Below are positions 2,106 to 8,175 of a stretch of DNA of 64,000 nt, piece after piece. Under the pieces are notes generated by a model, which made no database searches, was not told the origin of the DNA, and worked only from the letters and a program-made list of their open reading frames with translations. Made by a program: the position numbers and the translations under genes. The DNA is taken from the NCBI RefSeq assembly GCF_003815535.1, contig NZ_RPFZ01000001.1, positions 2,108,001 through 2,172,000 on the forward strand, given 5' to 3'. This DNA is from Aurantiacibacter spongiae (GTDB lineage Bacteria > Pseudomonadota > Alphaproteobacteria > Sphingomonadales > Sphingomonadaceae). Position 1 is the stretch's first letter; every line of letters begins with the position of its first letter.

Positions 2106-3337
2106 CCGCCGAGCCCACGCTGTCGATTGTCAATGCGCAGGTCGTTACCCCGGCCGGCATTGTCGAGGGGGCGCTCCGTTGTGCGGGAGACGGCATCGAG
2201 GATTTCGGCGCTTCCACAGGCCCCCTGGACGGCGACAGGATCGTCGACGCGCGCGGTCGGTTGCTTGCACCGGGTCTCGTCGATCTCGGGGTGTTCGCTA
2301 TCGACAAGCCGGCGTTTCATTTTGGCGGAATTACCCGTGCTGGCCTGATGCCCGACATGACCCCGCCGCTCGATCATCCGGCTCGCGTGCGGTTCGAAGC
2401 ACAAAGCGGCAAGCCGGGTCTCTGGGTTCATCCACTCGCGGCGGCCAGCGTTGGGCTCGAAGGACGTCAACTGGCCGAACTGGCTCTGATGCAGGATGCC
2501 GGCGCTCGCGCAGTCGCCACGGGACGGCATTGGATCGCCGACAGCGGCGTCATGCTGCGGCTGCTGCAATATGCCGCGATGCTCGATCTGGTCGTGGTCA
2601 CCCATTCAGAGGATACAGGCCTTTCGGGCCGGGCGGCCGCTACTGCGGGAGAAATGGCGACCCGTCTCGGCTTGCCGAGTGCGCCGAGCGAGGCGGAAAG
2701 TCTTGCGCTCGCTCGGGATATCGCGCTGGCCGAAATGACCGGGGCCCGTATTCATGCAAGGCAGGTGACGACGCGCGGAGGCCTCGCTCTGGTGCGCGAA
2801 GCGAAGGCGCGAGGGGTCGCTATTACAGCAGGTGTCACACCCGCTCATTTCATGCTTTCTGACCTCGCCTTGCAGGATTTTCGCACCTTCGCACGGCTCT
2901 CGCCACCGCTTCGTTCCGAAGAGGACCGGCGCGCCGTGGTCGAAGCCATCGCCGATGCGACGATAGACGTCATCGCCTCGGGCCATGACCCCCGGGGGCC
3001 GGAGGACAAGAACCTCCCCTTCGCGGACGCCGCGCCGGGGATGGCGGGGGCCGAGACCCTGCTCGCCATGACGTTGACACTCGTGCGCGACGGCGTGATC
3101 GACATGGCTCGCGCCTTCGACCTTTTGGCGCGCAATCCCGCGGATCTTCTTGGAGTGAAGGCCGGCGAACTGCGCGGCGGGTTCGCGGCCGACTTTGCCT
3201 TGATCGACCCCGAGGAGCCTTGGGTCGTCGATTCGCGCAAGATGGAGGCGGCCGCCGGGAATACACCGTTCGATCGACAACCCGTTCAGGGCAGGGTGAA
3301 GGCGCTCTGGAAAGGTGGAGTGGAAATCGCCCTGTGA
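2096..3337 (+). CDS. Non-catalytic dihydroorotase homologue (PyrC'/PyrX type)
   Basis: A 413-residue amidohydrolase-fold protein with the overall sequence of type I dihydroorotase but without its active site. The metal-binding HxH after PGLVDL is replaced by GVF (residues 65-67). The histidine three residues after H220 is Q223. The catalytic Asp of the usual TDHAPH is Gly296 in SGHDPR. H170 of HSED is retained. It should therefore not cyclise carbamoyl-aspartate. It starts inside pyrB (ATG at 2096, 10-bp overlap), which implies translational coupling and assembly with PyrB, as in the PyrB-PyrC' complexes of pseudomonads. A catalytic PyrC must be encoded elsewhere. Standard pipelines would label it pyrC, which would be misleading. 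Confidence 0.88.
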
Positions 3338-4086
3338 GTTTCTCAGGGAAAACCTGCATCGTTACAGGCGCCGCTTTGGGCATCGGCGCGGCATGCACAC
3401 GACTGCTCGCCGAACGGGGCATCGAAAAGCTTATCCTGGTCGATCGGGAATCTGGAAGCCCCGGTCCGCTGACGACCGATTGCCATGTCGAATGGCTTGT
3501 CGGTGACGTAGCTGATCAGGGTTTGTGGCACGAACTGGAGAATTCGGGCGCGGGATCGCTCGACTATGCTTTGCGCGACGCGGGCGTTTCTACCGGCTCG
3601 CACATTGTTGACCTGTCTTTTGCAGACTGACGCGGAACACTACGCGCCAACCTGGATGGCATGTTCCTCTCGCTTCGCTCGGTCATGCGAATGGCTCGGG
3701 ACGGCGCGGCCAACGTCTGCACGGCCTCGGCAAGCGGGCTGAAGGCAGAAGCCGGTACTGCCGCTTACGGTGCGTCGAAAGCGGGCGTGATCCAGTTGGC
3801 GAAAGTTGCCGCGAAGGAGGGGGCGGGCCGTGGCATAAGGGTCAATGCCATTGCCCCGGGCGGTGTGGACACGCCCATATGGGAGCGAACGGCTTTCTTT
3901 CGCGATCTGGTCGCCGAATACGGGGGCGATCGCCAGGCGGCGTTCGCATCGTTGGCAGCGTCAACGCCCCTCGGGCGGTTCGGGACGGCGCAGGAAGTCG
4001 CTGCGCAAATCGCGTTTCTGCTTTCCGATGACGCGGCTACGATAACCGGTACGGTTCTCGTCAGCGATGGCGGATACACGTTGTAG
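3334..4086 (+). pseudogene. Short-chain dehydrogenase/reductase interrupted by in-frame TGA
   Basis: The reading frame encodes a Rossmann-fold SDR of about 250 residues. It opens with GTG at 3334, overlapping the preceding stop as GTGA. The first part has the cofactor motif TGAALGIG. The second part has the catalytic YGASK and the typical NAIAPGGVDTPIW segment. A TGA at 3628-3630 separates them, with no frameshift: SFAD-stop-RGTLRANLDG. Relatives commonly have Trp at this place, so a TGG to TGA change is the simple explanation. The NNAG region is also weak (RDAGV). Neither half alone can be an SDR. Readthrough or a sequencing error cannot be excluded. The substrate is unknown. Confidence 0.85.
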
Positions 4087-4124: not shown

Positions 4125-5573
4125 TTAGCGCCGGGCGAGACGCACGCCGGTGTCCACCGCCCCCGGCAGGGGATTTGCCGCCGCCCAGGAGATGCAACCG
4201 TCGCCTTCGCGCGATGATACGGCGCTGCACATGGCGCGCGCGGAAGCGTTATCGAAGCCACCGGCTGACACGCGCCAGTAGCGTTTGCCCCTGACGATGG
4301 CCTGTGTGATCACCATTTCGCGATTGGCGAGTTCGGGATAGCGCCCGACATAAATACCCCAAGCGCGCTGCGCAGCTTGCTGGCTGGCAAAGCTTCCAAG
4401 CTGCACGAGATGGGTCGCATTCTCGACAGGCGCACCGATTGTCGTTGTACGGCGAACGGGGCGAGCCGGTTCGGTGCGCGCTGCGGAGTGTGCCGAAGCA
4501 AGGCGAGCCGACGAGCGCGCGGCTGGTTCCGCTCGGGCGCGTTCGACCGCGTTCTGCCCGGATTGCGCGCTGCGGCGGGCGGAAACATCCTGCACGACGG
4601 GAGAATCGACGAACCGTGTCGAATCGGTAGCGACAGCGTCCAGCGCTCCGTTTGCAGATGATTGGCCGACGAAAGCCGCGGCGAAGGTAACGGGCGAAGG
4701 CTCTCGCGGTTCGCCGTAGGTGTCGAGGCCGGGCTCGGGATTAGTCACGGCCGGCAGTTCGCCCTCTACGTCACGGGGCGCTTCGGCCATCGTCGCTGCG
4801 GCAGCGAACGCGGCGTCTGCGTTGACGGCCATATGGTCAAGACCCGGATCATTCCCGAGTGCCAGCTGCGCCGGTTGTCCGTTATCACGCACGTTCGCGG
4901 GCACGTCGAGCAGCTGCGCCACGCGGGCCCGATAGGCTTCGGCATGGGTGAGCTGCGCCCAGGCAGCCATGCGCTGACCGACCTGATCGGCGGGCACGTC
5001 CTGCGCCACCATCAGCCTCGATTCGCGCCAGCGACCCGCCACGGCATAGGCATAGGCCAGGTTCTGACGCATCTTGACCGTATTTTGTCCGGCGCGAATG
5101 GCGTTGGAAAGGATTTGAATGCCACGTTCCGGCTCGCCCGAGAGGGCCAGGGCCAGACCAAGGTCGGAAGCGGCGATCTCTCCCTCCCGATCATTCAGCA
5201 GCGTGGCGGCTTCCCGGAAGCGGCCTTCGCCGTTCAGGGCGAGTGCCAGGCTGAGCGCTGCGCGGGGGCTGTTGTCGCCCAGCGTCATGGCGTCGGAAAA
5301 TGCGTCGGCCGCCGATGCGAAGCGTCCCGCGTCAAGATAGGCATTTCCGAGAACCAAGCGGTACGCCGCGTTGCGCGGTTCGCCAAGTACGGCGGCTTCG
5401 GCAAGCCGGATGGCGCGGGAAGTCTGGCCTTCCTGCAATTCGTCCTGTGCCATTGCGGCGGCGACGTCCGCGCGGGGCGCCGGGTGGCCGGCACAGCCGC
5501 TGAGCATGGCGGCGGCCATGGCTGTACCCAGCCCAAGGCGCAGCATCGGGTTGACGGTGTGCGATCCACTCAT
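4125..5573 (-). CDS. SPOR-domain, TPR-like lipoprotein
   Basis: A 482-residue predicted outer-envelope lipoprotein. The signal peptide ends in the lipobox LSGC within the first 27 residues. Alpha-helical TPR-like repeats (for example GNAYLDAGRFASAADAF) fill roughly residues 40-210. A long Ala/Arg/Ser-rich linker follows. The C-terminal part is a SPOR domain (VQLGSFASQQAAQRAW onward), which binds denuded peptidoglycan at division sites. The ATG at 5573 is chosen because it starts the signal peptide. The gene lies 14 bp downstream of the RHH-like gene and the ParA gene, apparently in one operon. A role in septum or pole localisation is inferred from SPOR and ParA. Confidence 0.85.
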   Translation of the reverse strand: MSGSHTVNPMLRLGLGTAMAAAMLSGCAGHPAPRADVAAAMAQDELQEGQTSRAIRLAEAAVLGEPRNAAYRLVLGNAYLDAGRFASAADAFSDAMTLGDNSPRAALSLALALNGEGRFREAATLLNDREGEIAASDLGLALALSGEPERGIQILSNAIRAGQNTVKMRQNLAYAYAVAGRWRESRLMVAQDVPADQVGQRMAAWAQLTHAEAYRARVAQLLDVPANVRDNGQPAQLALGNDPGLDHMAVNADAAFAAAATMAEAPRDVEGELPAVTNPEPGLDTYGEPREPSPVTFAAAFVGQSSANGALDAVATDSTRFVDSPVVQDVSARRSAQSGQNAVERARAEPAARSSARLASAHSAARTEPARPVRRTTTIGAPVENATHLVQLGSFASQQAAQRAWGIYVGRYPELANREMVITQAIVRGKRYWRVSAGGFDNASARAMCSAVSSREGDGCISWAAANPLPGAVDTGVRLARR

Positions 5574-5587
5574 GGTGCGAAACCCCC

Positions 5588-6046
5588 TCAGGATTTGTTG
5601 GATTTGCCGGCGACGTGCGCCGCGATCGAATCGAGTTCGGGTATGTCGCCGAGCAGCTTGTCGAGCGCCTCGGTAACAAGCGTCTGCGCACTGCAATCGC
5701 GGATCGTGGCAGCGAGGCGCAGCTTGAGATGGCGTTCCGCATCGAGACGCAGCGTGAAGGCCGCGCGGCGACCGCTGTCCTTCGCTCGGTTTCGTGGCCG
5801 AACCGGGATGGGCGTGACATTGGCATCGTTCGCGACGGGTCGGAGGCAGGTTTGTTCGTCCTCGCCCATGTCGTTCCAGCCGAGCGCGGACTGGCTGTCG
5901 GCCAGATCGTCGAACTCGTCGCCCAGTTCGGCGGTACGGTCGTTCTGCGTCAGCTGGGCACGCATCGCTGGCTTTGCCGTACCTTTGCGGGCCAGCAGCA
6001 TCGGACCCAATGAGGCAAAGCTCGGACCGTTCATCGCGGAGCCCAT
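5588..6046 (-). CDS. Ribbon-helix-helix-like partner of ParA
   Basis: A 152-residue protein. The C-terminal 60 residues look like a ribbon-helix-helix unit: a short basic strand (AAFTLRLDAERHLKLRL) followed by two helices (SAQTLVTEALDKLLGDI). The N-terminus has the motif FASLGPMLLARKGTAKPAMR, then an acidic linker. The ATG at 6046 overlaps the ParA stop as TGATG, so translation is probably coupled. The likely job is a DNA- or cargo-binding partner of the orphan ParA upstream, analogous to the small CopG/ParG-type partners of plasmid ParA proteins. That role is inferred; no family name is certain. Confidence 0.65.
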   Translation of the reverse strand: MGSAMNGPSFASLGPMLLARKGTAKPAMRAQLTQNDRTAELGDEFDDLADSQSALGWNDMGEDEQTCLRPVANDANVTPIPVRPRNRAKDSGRRAAFTLRLDAERHLKLRLAATIRDCSAQTLVTEALDKLLGDIPELDSIAAHVAGKSNKS

Positions 6047-6765
6047 CACTGCGCCACCCGGCGGCCGAAATTGCCCTGAGCGCGATGTGCGCCCGCGGCA
6101 GCGGCAGCCTTGCTGTTCGGCGCCGCGAATACAGTGCGGCGGAAGTTTTTCTCCAGTCGATCGGCGACGTAGTGCCACAGCGCGGTCACTTCCTGCGCGC
6201 TGCGCCCTTCGGGATCGACTTCCATAACCGTGCGCCCGTCGATCATCGAGGCGGCAAAATCGGTGCGGTGATGAATGGTAATGGGCGCCACGGTGCCGTG
6301 CTGCGAGAGGGCAACAGCGGCTTCCGAGGTTATCTTGGCCTTGGGCGTCGCCGCGTTGACCACGAAGATCAGGGGCTTGCCGGCGCGCTCGCACAAATCG
6401 ACGGTAGCGCCCACGGCGCGAAGGTCATGCGGAGAGGGACGGGTCGGTACGACCATCAGTTCGGCGACCGAAATCACCGACTGGATAGCCATGGTAATAG
6501 CCGGCGGGGTGTCGATGACGGCCAGTTTGAACCCCTGCTGGCGCAGGATTGCCAGATCGTTTGCAAGCCGGGCGACCGTCGTCTGGGCGAAGGCCGGAAA
6601 CTCGGCTTCGCGCTCGTTCCACCAATCGGCGAGGGACCCCTGCGGGTCGATATCGATCAGGACGACCGGGCCGGCGCCCGCACGCTGGGCCTGCACGGCC
6701 AGGTGCCCCGACAAGGTGGTCTTGCCGGATCCACCCTTCTGCGATGCCAATGCCAATACGCGCAA
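6046..6765 (-). CDS. ParA-family ATPase (orphan)
   Basis: A 239-residue ParA/MinD-type ATPase. The deviant Walker A KGGSGKTT is at residues 10-17, IDIDPQGS at about 37-44 and DTPP at about 85-88. These proteins dimerise on ATP and bind nucleoid DNA or membrane to position cargo. It is not the chromosomal ParA: there is no ParB, gid or parS in sight. The C-terminal tail (about residues 215-239) is Ala- and Gly-rich. It heads an operon with the RHH-like protein and a SPOR lipoprotein, and diverges from a second SPOR protein. This points to positioning of envelope or division factors, an inference from context. Confidence 0.88.
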   Translation of the reverse strand: MRVLALASQKGGSGKTTLSGHLAVQAQRAGAGPVVLIDIDPQGSLADWWNEREAEFPAFAQTTVARLANDLAILRQQGFKLAVIDTPPAITMAIQSVISVAELMVVPTRPSPHDLRAVGATVDLCERAGKPLIFVVNAATPKAKITSEAAVALSQHGTVAPITIHHRTDFAASMIDGRTVMEVDPEGRSAQEVTALWHYVADRLEKNFRRTVFAAPNSKAAAAAGAHRAQGNFGRRVAQ

Positions 6766-7011
6766 GGCGATTCCCCCTAAAGTCCATGGCCCGCAACACG
6801 TCGCTGAACGGGCCTTCCTCGAAGGGAGATCGCAGACTACCGTTTATTTTGAGTTAATTCGGATCGGCATCTCCTGCACTGGCAATCTCCACTCGCCGTG
6901 AAGGTGTCCCCGTGACGGAAGGATCGTTCCTGCCCGCATAAAGACTTTGCTAAGCCATCGTTTACTATGGCATTCCGCAAGCGGGCGTCCGCAAACGGGG
7001 AATTTGTCACG
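6766..7011. promoter_or_regulatory. Divergent promoter region with a CtrA-like half-site pair
   Basis: The 246 bp between the ParA gene and the Sel1-SPOR gene must hold promoters for both. At 6950-6964 the sequence CTAA-(7 nt)-TTTA resembles the CtrA consensus TTAA-N7-TTAA, with one mismatch per half-site. No other element is clear. The match is weak and offered only because both flanking transcripts look cell-cycle related. Confidence 0.25.
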
Positions 7012-8175
7012 ATGGACCAGTCGTATTCGACTCCGCTACGGCGGCGCGGTGGTTTGATCGGTGCCGGTTTCGCACTGGCATTCTCAATGTCGCTTGCCGC
7101 CCCGCTCCATGCCGACGTTCGCGCCGGGGTCGACGCCTGGAGCCGGGGGGACTACGCTGCGGCCATCGCCGAATGGGAAGGGCCGGCGGCGGCCGGCGAT
7201 CCCGACGCGATGTTCAATCTCGCGCAGGCTTATCGCCTGGGGCGGGGCGTCGCGCGGGACGAAGGTCGCGCACTGTCGCTTTACCGCCGCGCGGCGGAAG
7301 CCGGCCATCCGCAGGCCGCCGATACCTACGGCCTGATGATGTTCCAGGACGGACAACGCGCCGAGGCGCTGCCCTATGTGCAATCCGCCGCGCGGCGGGG
7401 CGACCCGCGTGCCCAGTATCTCCTTGGCATCGCACATTTCAACGGAGACCTGGTCGAACGGGACTGGGAACGTGCCTATGCACTGCTGACGCTCGCCAAT
7501 GCCACCGGATTGCCACAGGCGAGCACCGCGATCGCCCAGATGGATCGCTATATTCCGCTGGACCAGCGCCAGCGCGGCGCGGCCCTAGCGCGCCGGCTCG
7601 AATCAGAGGCGGTCGATGCGCGTTCGGTCGAATTGACGGCTGCCGACCTTTCGGTGCAGGGGGCGCCGGTATCCATGCCTTCCCCGTCCCCGACCCGCGC
7701 CGACGCCTCGCCTTCGGTCGCGGCTGCACGTGACGCGGTGATGCAGGCGCGCATCGCAACCGGCACGGCAAGTCCCGCGGATGCCGGGGTCAGTTACGCT
7801 CTTCGCGACAGCGGGCGCGCGGCCCCCTCCACAACGACCGTGGCGGCAGCGAGCCATCCCGTGTCTTCCCAGAACCCTGATGCGAACACGTCTCCCGAAC
7901 GCATGTCCCGGCTCGAGGTGTCTCCTGCCAACGCTGCCCGACAAAGCGGTCCGTGGAGAATCCAACTGGGTGCCTTCTCGGTGGACGGCAATGCCGAGCG
8001 ATTGTGGAACAGGCTTTCCAACCGTGCCGAAATTGCTGGCCGAGAGCGACGTCTGATACCCGCCGGGCGCTTAACGAAGCTGCAGGCGGTCGGGTATGCG
8101 AGCCGCGCCGATGCGCAAGACGCGTGCAACTCGCTGCGGCGCTCTGGTTACGACTGCCTTGTGACGCGGGACTGA
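7012..8175 (+). CDS. Secreted Sel1-repeat and SPOR-domain protein
   Basis: A 387-residue exported protein. A twin-arginine-like cluster (RRR) precedes a hydrophobic signal ending near APLHA-D. Sel1-like repeats follow at about residues 45-180 (AMFNLAQAYRLGRGV, ADTYGLMMFQDG, AQYLLGIAHFNG). Next is a low-complexity Ser/Ala/Pro linker. A SPOR domain sits at the C-terminus (WRIQLGAFSVDGNAERLW to the end). Start at ATG 7012 is preferred over 6967 because it leaves a normal signal peptide. The gene diverges from the ParA operon, whose last gene also ends in SPOR, so two SPOR proteins frame the ParA unit. A periplasmic scaffold at septal peptidoglycan is the inferred role. Confidence 0.85.
   Translation: MDQSYSTPLRRRGGLIGAGFALAFSMSLAAPLHADVRAGVDAWSRGDYAAAIAEWEGPAAAGDPDAMFNLAQAYRLGRGVARDEGRALSLYRRAAEAGHPQAADTYGLMMFQDGQRAEALPYVQSAARRGDPRAQYLLGIAHFNGDLVERDWERAYALLTLANATGLPQASTAIAQMDRYIPLDQRQRGAALARRLESEAVDARSVELTAADLSVQGAPVSMPSPSPTRADASPSVAAARDAVMQARIATGTASPADAGVSYALRDSGRAAPSTTTVAAASHPVSSQNPDANTSPERMSRLEVSPANAARQSGPWRIQLGAFSVDGNAERLWNRLSNRAEIAGRERRLIPAGRLTKLQAVGYASRADAQDACNSLRRSGYDCLVTRD

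Follow-up and report, generated by a model that had tools for sequence, protein, structure and literature searches.

We analyzed a four-gene block at positions 4125 to 8175 of a 64,000-nucleotide stretch of the Aurantiacibacter spongiae genome (the window; contig NZ_RPFZ01000001.1, positions 2,108,001 to 2,172,000). The block encodes a ParA ATPase, a small adaptor resembling ribbon-helix-helix (RHH) proteins, a TPR-SPOR lipoprotein and, divergently, a second SPOR protein with Sel1 repeats. We lean toward the view that its ParA and RHH adaptor are a plasmid-type pair, domesticated as a chromosomal module in the order Sphingomonadales and recruited to septum-linked work beside two probably exported SPOR proteins. 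The adaptor of this pair carries at its N-terminus a peptide of the form ASLxxxLLARKGxAxP, variants of which occur on plasmid partners. The ParA-adaptor-SPOR set is order-wide, and in related lineages a single protein unites the ParA-partner peptide, a transmembrane-like helix and a SPOR domain. The link between chromosome segregation and envelope constriction is understood in only a few model bacteria. The features are as follows.

5969..6016, minus strand: ASLGPMLLARKGTAKP, codons of the conserved N-terminal peptide, a proposed ParA binder (invariant residues, consensus, plasmid variants)
5588..6046, minus strand: small RHH-like adaptor, 152 amino acids, with the N-terminal motif, a low-confidence middle (EDLGWNDMG-like element) and a C-terminal RHH part
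5597..5764, minus strand: predicted RHH part of the adaptor, about residues 95-150 (AlphaFold2 and weak Foldseek matches)
6046..6765, minus strand: ParA ATPase, 239 amino acids, TTG start with AGGGGG ahead of it
4125..5573, minus strand: TPR-SPOR lipoprotein, 482 amino acids, lipobox LSGC, SPOR domain at 4194-4418
6967..8175, plus strand: Sel1-repeat SPOR protein, 402 amino acids; the probable start at 7012 gives 387 amino acids with a signal peptide; SPOR domain at 7945-8166
6843..6857, minus strand: TTAACTCAAAATAAA, degenerate window copy of a TTAAC-N6-TTAG element, CtrA-site-like

The ParA/adaptor pair and its N-terminal peptide

For comparison we used an even draw of 147 Sphingomonadales genomes. 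A ParA match at E ≤ 1e-20 was found in 125 of them, two of which (G121 and G085) hold a distant paralog only, and 123 carry a ParA of at least 57% identity, four as fragments. From these 123 loci, 55 were picked for spread, together with five low-identity paralogs. In the class Alphaproteobacteria, 47 of 240 genomes matched ParA at E ≤ 1e-30, among them three members of the order; 33 of the genomes from outside the order supplied the 40 class loci referred to below.

Judged by eye, the peptide or a near variant stands on ParA's partner at 53 of the 55 order loci (L055 has no partner, and the L090 copy is degenerate), and the peptide is found at 31 of the 40 class loci. Residues A11, S12, L13, L17, L18, A19, R20, K21, G22, A24 and P26 are invariant in 41 aligned adaptors, the window protein included. 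The consensus A-S-L-[TS]-[AS]-x-L-L-A-R-K-G-x-A-x-P fits 80 of 82 ParA-adjacent partners, a figure that describes rather than tests, because the 82 were gathered with a loose, motif-like pattern. A DNA pattern search of the host genome gave seven matches, and only in the window gene is the match N-terminal in a plausible gene; this was a single strict pattern that variants could escape, and its reversed control gave 11 matches. The host genome encodes three more SPOR proteins; two lack the peptide, and the N-terminus of the third is cut in the stretch examined.

The peptide is also found on plasmids. A tblastn search of 72,556 plasmid records returned 121 at E ≤ 1e-30, with the best ParA at 65% identity. 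At all 18 loci examined from these 121 records, the small protein after parA bears the peptide in variant form (13 found by pattern, 5 by eye) and, by eye, has an RHH-like C-terminal segment; two of the partners (L229 and L282) are identical. According to PMC5393062, the disordered N-terminus of the TP228 RHH partner binds ParA, and an arginine there stimulates ATP hydrolysis. More generally, the literature describes N-terminal motifs of ParB and ParG that bind ParA and raise its ATPase. Because these N-termini bind and stimulate ParA, we provisionally assign ParA activation to the adaptor peptide; by analogy, the RHH adaptor should bind and activate ParA.

The window ParA itself is of the kind found in plasmid-type (Ib) partition systems: it is short, lacks an N-terminal helix-turn-helix (HTH) domain and has a deviant Walker A motif with the signature lysine, QKGGSGKTT, at its N-terminus. 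A small RHH-type partner lies next to it, as in such systems, with the fold assigned from prediction and weak matches. AAA_31/CbiA profiles of ParA type matched above their curated Pfam cut-offs, and the closest solved structures by sequence are 5u1g (ParA) and 4dzz (ParF). The protein scores 163.7 bits against NCBIfam NF041546 (ParA_partition), below the threshold of 180 bits. The MipZ profile gives 32.4 (Pfam cut-off, 20.7), but the match covers only residues 3-54 of 262 profile positions and is not full-length. The original prediction had called this ParA an orphan, which is apt only in that no CTPase-type ParB lies beside it; the best of three ParB-family matches in the genome, at C1:1445826, sits beside another ParA-like match, C1:1447136. 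The RHH neighbor, by homology to plasmid pairs, is nonetheless its partner. That the pair is of plasmid type, and that it shares an N-terminal peptide, had been overlooked.

Centromere-like repeats beside the operon are a further mark of plasmid-type systems. Within the 250 bases ahead of parA, we counted repeated 7-mers and compared them with first-order random sequences. Plasmid loci hold 15.9 where 8.6 are expected, and 7 of the 18 rank within the top 5%. There is no excess at the order loci (10.3 against 9.8; 1 of 55 in the top 5%), and the 37 class loci tested give 9.3 against 8.3 (3 of 37). A smaller run with six plasmids and fewer shuffles went in the same direction, but the top 5% then included 3 of the 55 order loci and 4 of the 37 class loci. 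Upstream of the window parA there are no centromere-like repeats beyond chance, in a test confined to the region ahead of the gene. Downstream of 12 plasmid pairs, the sequence is not rich in repeats either. Since the excess is seen for plasmids only, the chromosomal copies as a group do not have the repeat-rich region that precedes parA on plasmids.

The C-terminal part of the adaptor is predicted to be an RHH domain. The Antitox_RHH profile matches at E 0.007, under its cut-off. AlphaFold2 places three confident helices within residues 103-148 (block means of 87-97 across residues 101-150), with the ribbon strand unassigned in the monomer model. Confidence is low over the first 90 residues, and the stretch before the helices has a mean predicted local distance difference test score of 69; the middle of the protein is probably disordered. 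Foldseek matches of the model are all weak, none with E ≤ 0.001, and include Arc, CopG, AtaR, CdbA, TacA, MatP and AmrZ, which we take to be RHH proteins. We rejected a role as antitoxin despite the Antitox_RHH match, as the neighbors are ParA and the lipoprotein gene, with no toxin.

Some further features of the adaptors are recorded here as observations. A second conserved element resembling EDLGWNDMG (residues 54-61 of the window protein) recurs in family relatives within the low-confidence middle. Adaptors outside Sphingomonadaceae often close, after the RHH part, with a CxC pair (CICG, CLCG, CSCM or CNCL; for example, L078, L084, L098 and L111) that is rare in family f1 and possibly binds metal. 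The L110 partner keeps the N-terminal motif on a C-terminus that does not look like RHH, possibly a further exchange of the adaptor's end. At L124, a third gene after ParA and the motif-RHH protein, about 560-1030 bases after the ParA match, encodes a protein in which two stretches resemble the motif and a hydrophobic helix lies at the C-terminus; it may be a tail-anchored partner of ParA. At class loci L109, L111 and L113, the pair is followed by a gene that by eye resembles those for PAS-domain proteins.

SPOR linkage within and beyond Sphingomonadales

In the window, the stop codon of parA (TGA) and the ATG of the adaptor gene overlap as TGATG, and 14 bases separate the adaptor stop from the lipoprotein gene. 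The divergent genes are separated by 201 bases (6766-6966), or by 246 if the Sel1-SPOR protein starts at 7012. Open reading frames and Pfam profiles bear out the gene content and coordinates given in the original prediction, and the overlap and the divergent Sel1-SPOR gene that it described are both seen in the window. Both SPOR domains pass the Pfam cut-off of 21 bits (31.7 and 53.1 bits), and the TPR and Sel1 repeats are above their curated cut-offs. The in-frame ATG at 7012 gives the Sel1-SPOR protein a better signal peptide than the start at 6967; signal peptide and lipobox were assigned by eye. With a lipobox or signal peptide, the two proteins do not have the FtsN layout of a single transmembrane helix and a periplasmic SPOR domain. 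SPOR matches in the host genome number five, of which this block accounts for two, and the genome has one close copy of the window ParA.

The linkage of ParA with SPOR genes is old. With a SPOR profile built from 10 sequences of the set (threshold E ≤ 1e-3), at least one SPOR gene was found within about 3.5 kb of ParA at 54 of the 55 order loci and both SPOR genes at 42, as compared with none of the five distant ParA paralogs. These loci span seven families (f1, f2 and f4-f8); in f3, outside the 55 loci, ParA and a Sel1-SPOR match share one short contig (G002:C215). Conservation of this kind excludes chance. It is also what the original prediction had proposed to look for across the order, and its opposite, unlinked genes in relatives, is what that prediction had said would count against it; on this point the prediction holds up. 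In f5, the Sel1-SPOR gene sits between the lipoprotein gene and RHH-ParA in 14 of 19 loci, with the block still together. Two genomes (G030 and G135) have ParA and the lipoprotein and no Sel1-SPOR match genome-wide at E ≤ 1e-15. We preferred adjacency to whole-genome tallies for the two SPOR proteins (142/147 and 145/147 order genomes), because these include generic TPR or Sel1 matches. Candidate lipoprotein orthologs outside the order, in 60 of 240 class genomes (three of them order members), match mostly through the TPR part alone and were therefore not counted.

In another branch of the Alphaproteobacteria, the ParA-partner peptide and the SPOR domain meet in one protein. At six class loci (L107, L120, L122, L127, L128 and L132), the protein directly after parA has the N-terminal peptide and a C-terminal SPOR domain. 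Five of these proteins, used as queries against 385 class genomes, matched 17 genomes, and 12 of the matches were examined by locus. In seven, namely the five queries and the new L251 and L252, the gene follows parA immediately and its product bears the peptide. Five have no ParA in the stretch examined: three bitopic SPOR proteins without the peptide (L253, L256 and L257, in stretches of 3.6-3.7 kb), a Sel1-SPOR protein and one match cut at a contig end. L107, whose start codon is unsure, was missed by this search. Peptide-helix-SPOR proteins directly after ParA are thus found in eight genomes of other Alphaproteobacteria. Hydropathy supports a transmembrane-like helix in all eight, with one strong candidate between the peptide and the SPOR domain (19-residue mean of 1.96 to 2.71).

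Among 69 ParAs placed in a tree, those paired with helix-SPOR form one cluster if labelled groups only are counted, with two RHH-paired rows inside it, and the cluster is nested among RHH-paired ParAs (bootstrap not settled). The two kinds coexist in three genomes (G268, G371 and G352), where an RHH protein accompanies one ParA and a helix-SPOR protein a different one. In G155 and G288, the motif on the RHH-type partner of the second ParA is degenerate. The simplest reading would be that the RHH partner came first and the helix-SPOR partner later, with the peptide kept. Exchange of the adaptor's end around a retained peptide offers a plausible path from plasmid partition parts to cell-biology parts. 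The window ParA ends in FGRRVAQ, and among the ParAs of the tree set a loose pattern finds an FGRR-like motif at the C-terminus, preceded by a variable linker, in 22/22 order proteins (window included), 21/28 class proteins not paired with helix-SPOR, 0/8 that are so paired, 0/6 plasmid and 0/5 outgroup proteins.

Proposed mechanism and competing explanations

We propose that ParA-ATP dimers would coat the nucleoid and that the RHH adaptor, presumably a dimer, would offer its flexible N-terminal peptide. Docking of the peptide on the ParA dimer would trigger ATP hydrolysis, as do the ParG and ParB N-termini, and the adaptor with its cargo would thereby be positioned relative to the nucleoid. 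The service of the module would have shifted from replicon partition toward a septum- or envelope-linked process. We place the shift there because no centromere-like repeats are seen beside it, SPOR proteins are co-encoded and, in another branch, a transmembrane-like helix with a SPOR domain takes the place of the RHH end. In the window lineage, genome context ties the SPOR proteins to ParA. Since both appear to leave the cytoplasm, coupling would be indirect, possibly through shared timing, an additional membrane partner or nucleoid position.

A number of observations weigh against a septum-linked ParA module. As both window SPOR proteins look exported, their direct contact with ParA is unlikely. 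There is no SPOR neighbor at threshold at 34 of the 40 class ParA loci, several of which are cut by contig ends. Nine of the 40 class partners do not show an intact peptide: three are cut at contig ends (L121, L123 and L126), four are degenerate (L129, L131, L133 and L134) and two have no recognizable copy (L135 and L136). At the order locus L090 (genome G034), the SPOR pair lies about 84 kb from ParA. The ParA ortholog is missing from 24 of the 147 order genomes, and in 8 of the 15 that we sampled by stretches the lipoprotein gene lies next to the Sel1-SPOR gene in divergent orientation. The ParA position is covered and empty in seven of these eight (G132, G001, G006, G036, G058, G085 and G102, of which G085 and G102 are drafts with a stated completeness of 93% and 76%); in the eighth, G090, a nearby contig end prevents a judgment. 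The rest of the 15 comprise two with the lipoprotein gene near a contig end, four with only a Sel1-SPOR-like gene and one filler stretch. Because seven genomes keep the pair without ParA, the SPOR proteins can work alone, and an obligate four-part machine is disfavored; we regard the pair as a unit of its own, usually but not always accompanied by ParA-RHH. The RHH call itself is based on a predicted monomer and a profile match below its cut-off. The RHH protein may bind DNA at sites elsewhere. Finally, the window copy of the element upstream of parA is degenerate, and its pattern is not enriched in the host genome (3 matches against 11 in the control).

The coordinated ATPase-envelope system of the original prediction is thus partly supported. 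Order-wide linkage speaks for it, and the strongest support comes from lineages outside the order, where the peptide-helix-SPOR proteins occur. Against it stand the apparent export of the SPOR proteins, the ParA-less pairs and the unlinked G034. That it knew of no description of such a system agrees with the literature matches listed (titles and abstract openings, with subscription papers and preprints mostly outside coverage), among which we found no description of a ParA-SPOR module.

A bolder version is conceivable, and we hold it only tentatively: a plasmid partition machine was re-purposed to couple the nucleoid to the division-site wall, the peptide being a portable tag that moved from the RHH protein to a transmembrane SPOR protein, and Sphingomonadales keep the ancestral RHH adaptor, working with two co-encoded SPOR proteins. 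If true, chromosome position would, through ParA, set the time or place of septal-wall binding, and this connection from nucleoid to periplasm would differ from Min, MipZ, Noc and MatP.

Alternatively, the pair could be a second chromosomal partition system, in which the RHH protein binds DNA sites elsewhere and ParA segregates or anchors a region, like MatP or ParG, the SPOR genes being neighbors without a shared mechanism. The nearest non-chromosomal kin are indeed plasmid partition pairs with RHH-like partners, and both the ParA-less SPOR pairs and the class loci without a SPOR neighbor fit this explanation. We nevertheless judge it unlikely, if a serious contender: order parA genes have no upstream repeat excess (in a test confined to that region), the linkage survives the changed gene order in f5, and a membrane helix with SPOR has become the partner in another branch.

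Expression coupling alone is a poorer candidate. Here the RHH protein would repress the divergent promoter region, ParA would tune the repressor and the SPOR proteins would merely be regulated. Plasmid RHH partners commonly autoregulate, and the intergenic region in the window is short and shared. Relatives also conserve an element there: TTAAC-N6-TTAG is present 63-126 bases before the parA start in 63 of 75 upstream regions (74 named relatives, not independent of one another, plus the window, which is not among the 63) against 0.06 expected. The looser TTAA-N7-TTAR occurs at 14 of the 55 diverse order loci against 2.4 expected, mostly in f1, and TTAAC-N6-TTAR at none of 37 class loci. The element, however, resembles TTAA-N7-TTAA, not repeated operators; the Sel1-SPOR gene has no promoter region in common with parA in 14 of 19 f5 loci; and motif-helix-SPOR partners have no RHH end. 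On balance we find this explanation improbable.

The TTAA-N7-TTAA string occurs alongside CtrA in excerpts of the literature. We rejected CtrA control of parA and claim only a resemblance to CtrA sites, because the window has only a degenerate copy, the host genome shows no enrichment of the pattern and the class loci lack it; as a sign of cell-cycle control, the element is a lead, not a finding.

Hitch-hiking, with slow rearrangement alone keeping the genes together, is the least credible explanation, for although pyrB and pyrC also remain close in many f1 loci, the window flanks (pyrB, pyrC, DUF418 and Der) are near ParA only in f1, and ParA and SPOR are linked in seven families.

Separately, a short-chain dehydrogenase-like gene downstream of pyrC (3220-4086, plus strand) is split by an in-frame TGA at 3628-3630. 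Its halves share one frame, and it may be a pseudogene or reflect a sequencing error.

Comparison with known systems

The closest known relatives are the plasmid ParA/RHH pairs, such as TP228 ParF/ParG and those of NF041546; pSM19035 delta/omega is another such partition pair. The block shares with ParF/ParG and NF041546 pairs a short ParA, an adjacent small RHH-type partner and a flexible, basic-aliphatic N-terminal peptide. It differs in being chromosomal, order-wide, SPOR-linked and without an upstream repeat excess, and its ParAs in the order have the FGRR-like tail not seen in the six plasmid proteins compared.

DamX and RlpA are SPOR-domain septal proteins, as are FtsN and RgsS. PMC6895207 reports that SPOR domains bind peptide-stripped glycan, which is enriched at septa. 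The block resembles FtsN and RgsS in the C-terminal SPOR domain, and the motif-helix-SPOR proteins are FtsN-like in layout; the window, in contrast, has a TPR lipoprotein and a Sel1 protein with a signal peptide. In Sinorhizobium, the bitopic SPOR protein RgsS and the Sel1/TPR protein RgsF have a comparable make-up and act in growth and division; the excerpted text of PMC7327166 mentions no ParA link for them. Our bitopic SPOR relatives beside ParA carry the ParA-partner peptide, whereas the three bitopic SPOR proteins without ParA nearby do not.

MatP is an RHH protein that links the chromosome terminus to the divisome. Like the adaptor in our reading, it is a chromosomal RHH protein with a division link, and it is among the weak Foldseek matches; its N-terminus differs from that of the adaptor, and to our knowledge it has no ParA partner. 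McdAB, PpfA-TlpT and PomXYZ are cargo positioners of ParA/MinD type. As in these systems, a nucleoid ATPase with an adaptor could position cargo other than DNA; here, unlike there, the cargo would be linked to the septal wall, and the adaptor would descend from a plasmid centromere binder.

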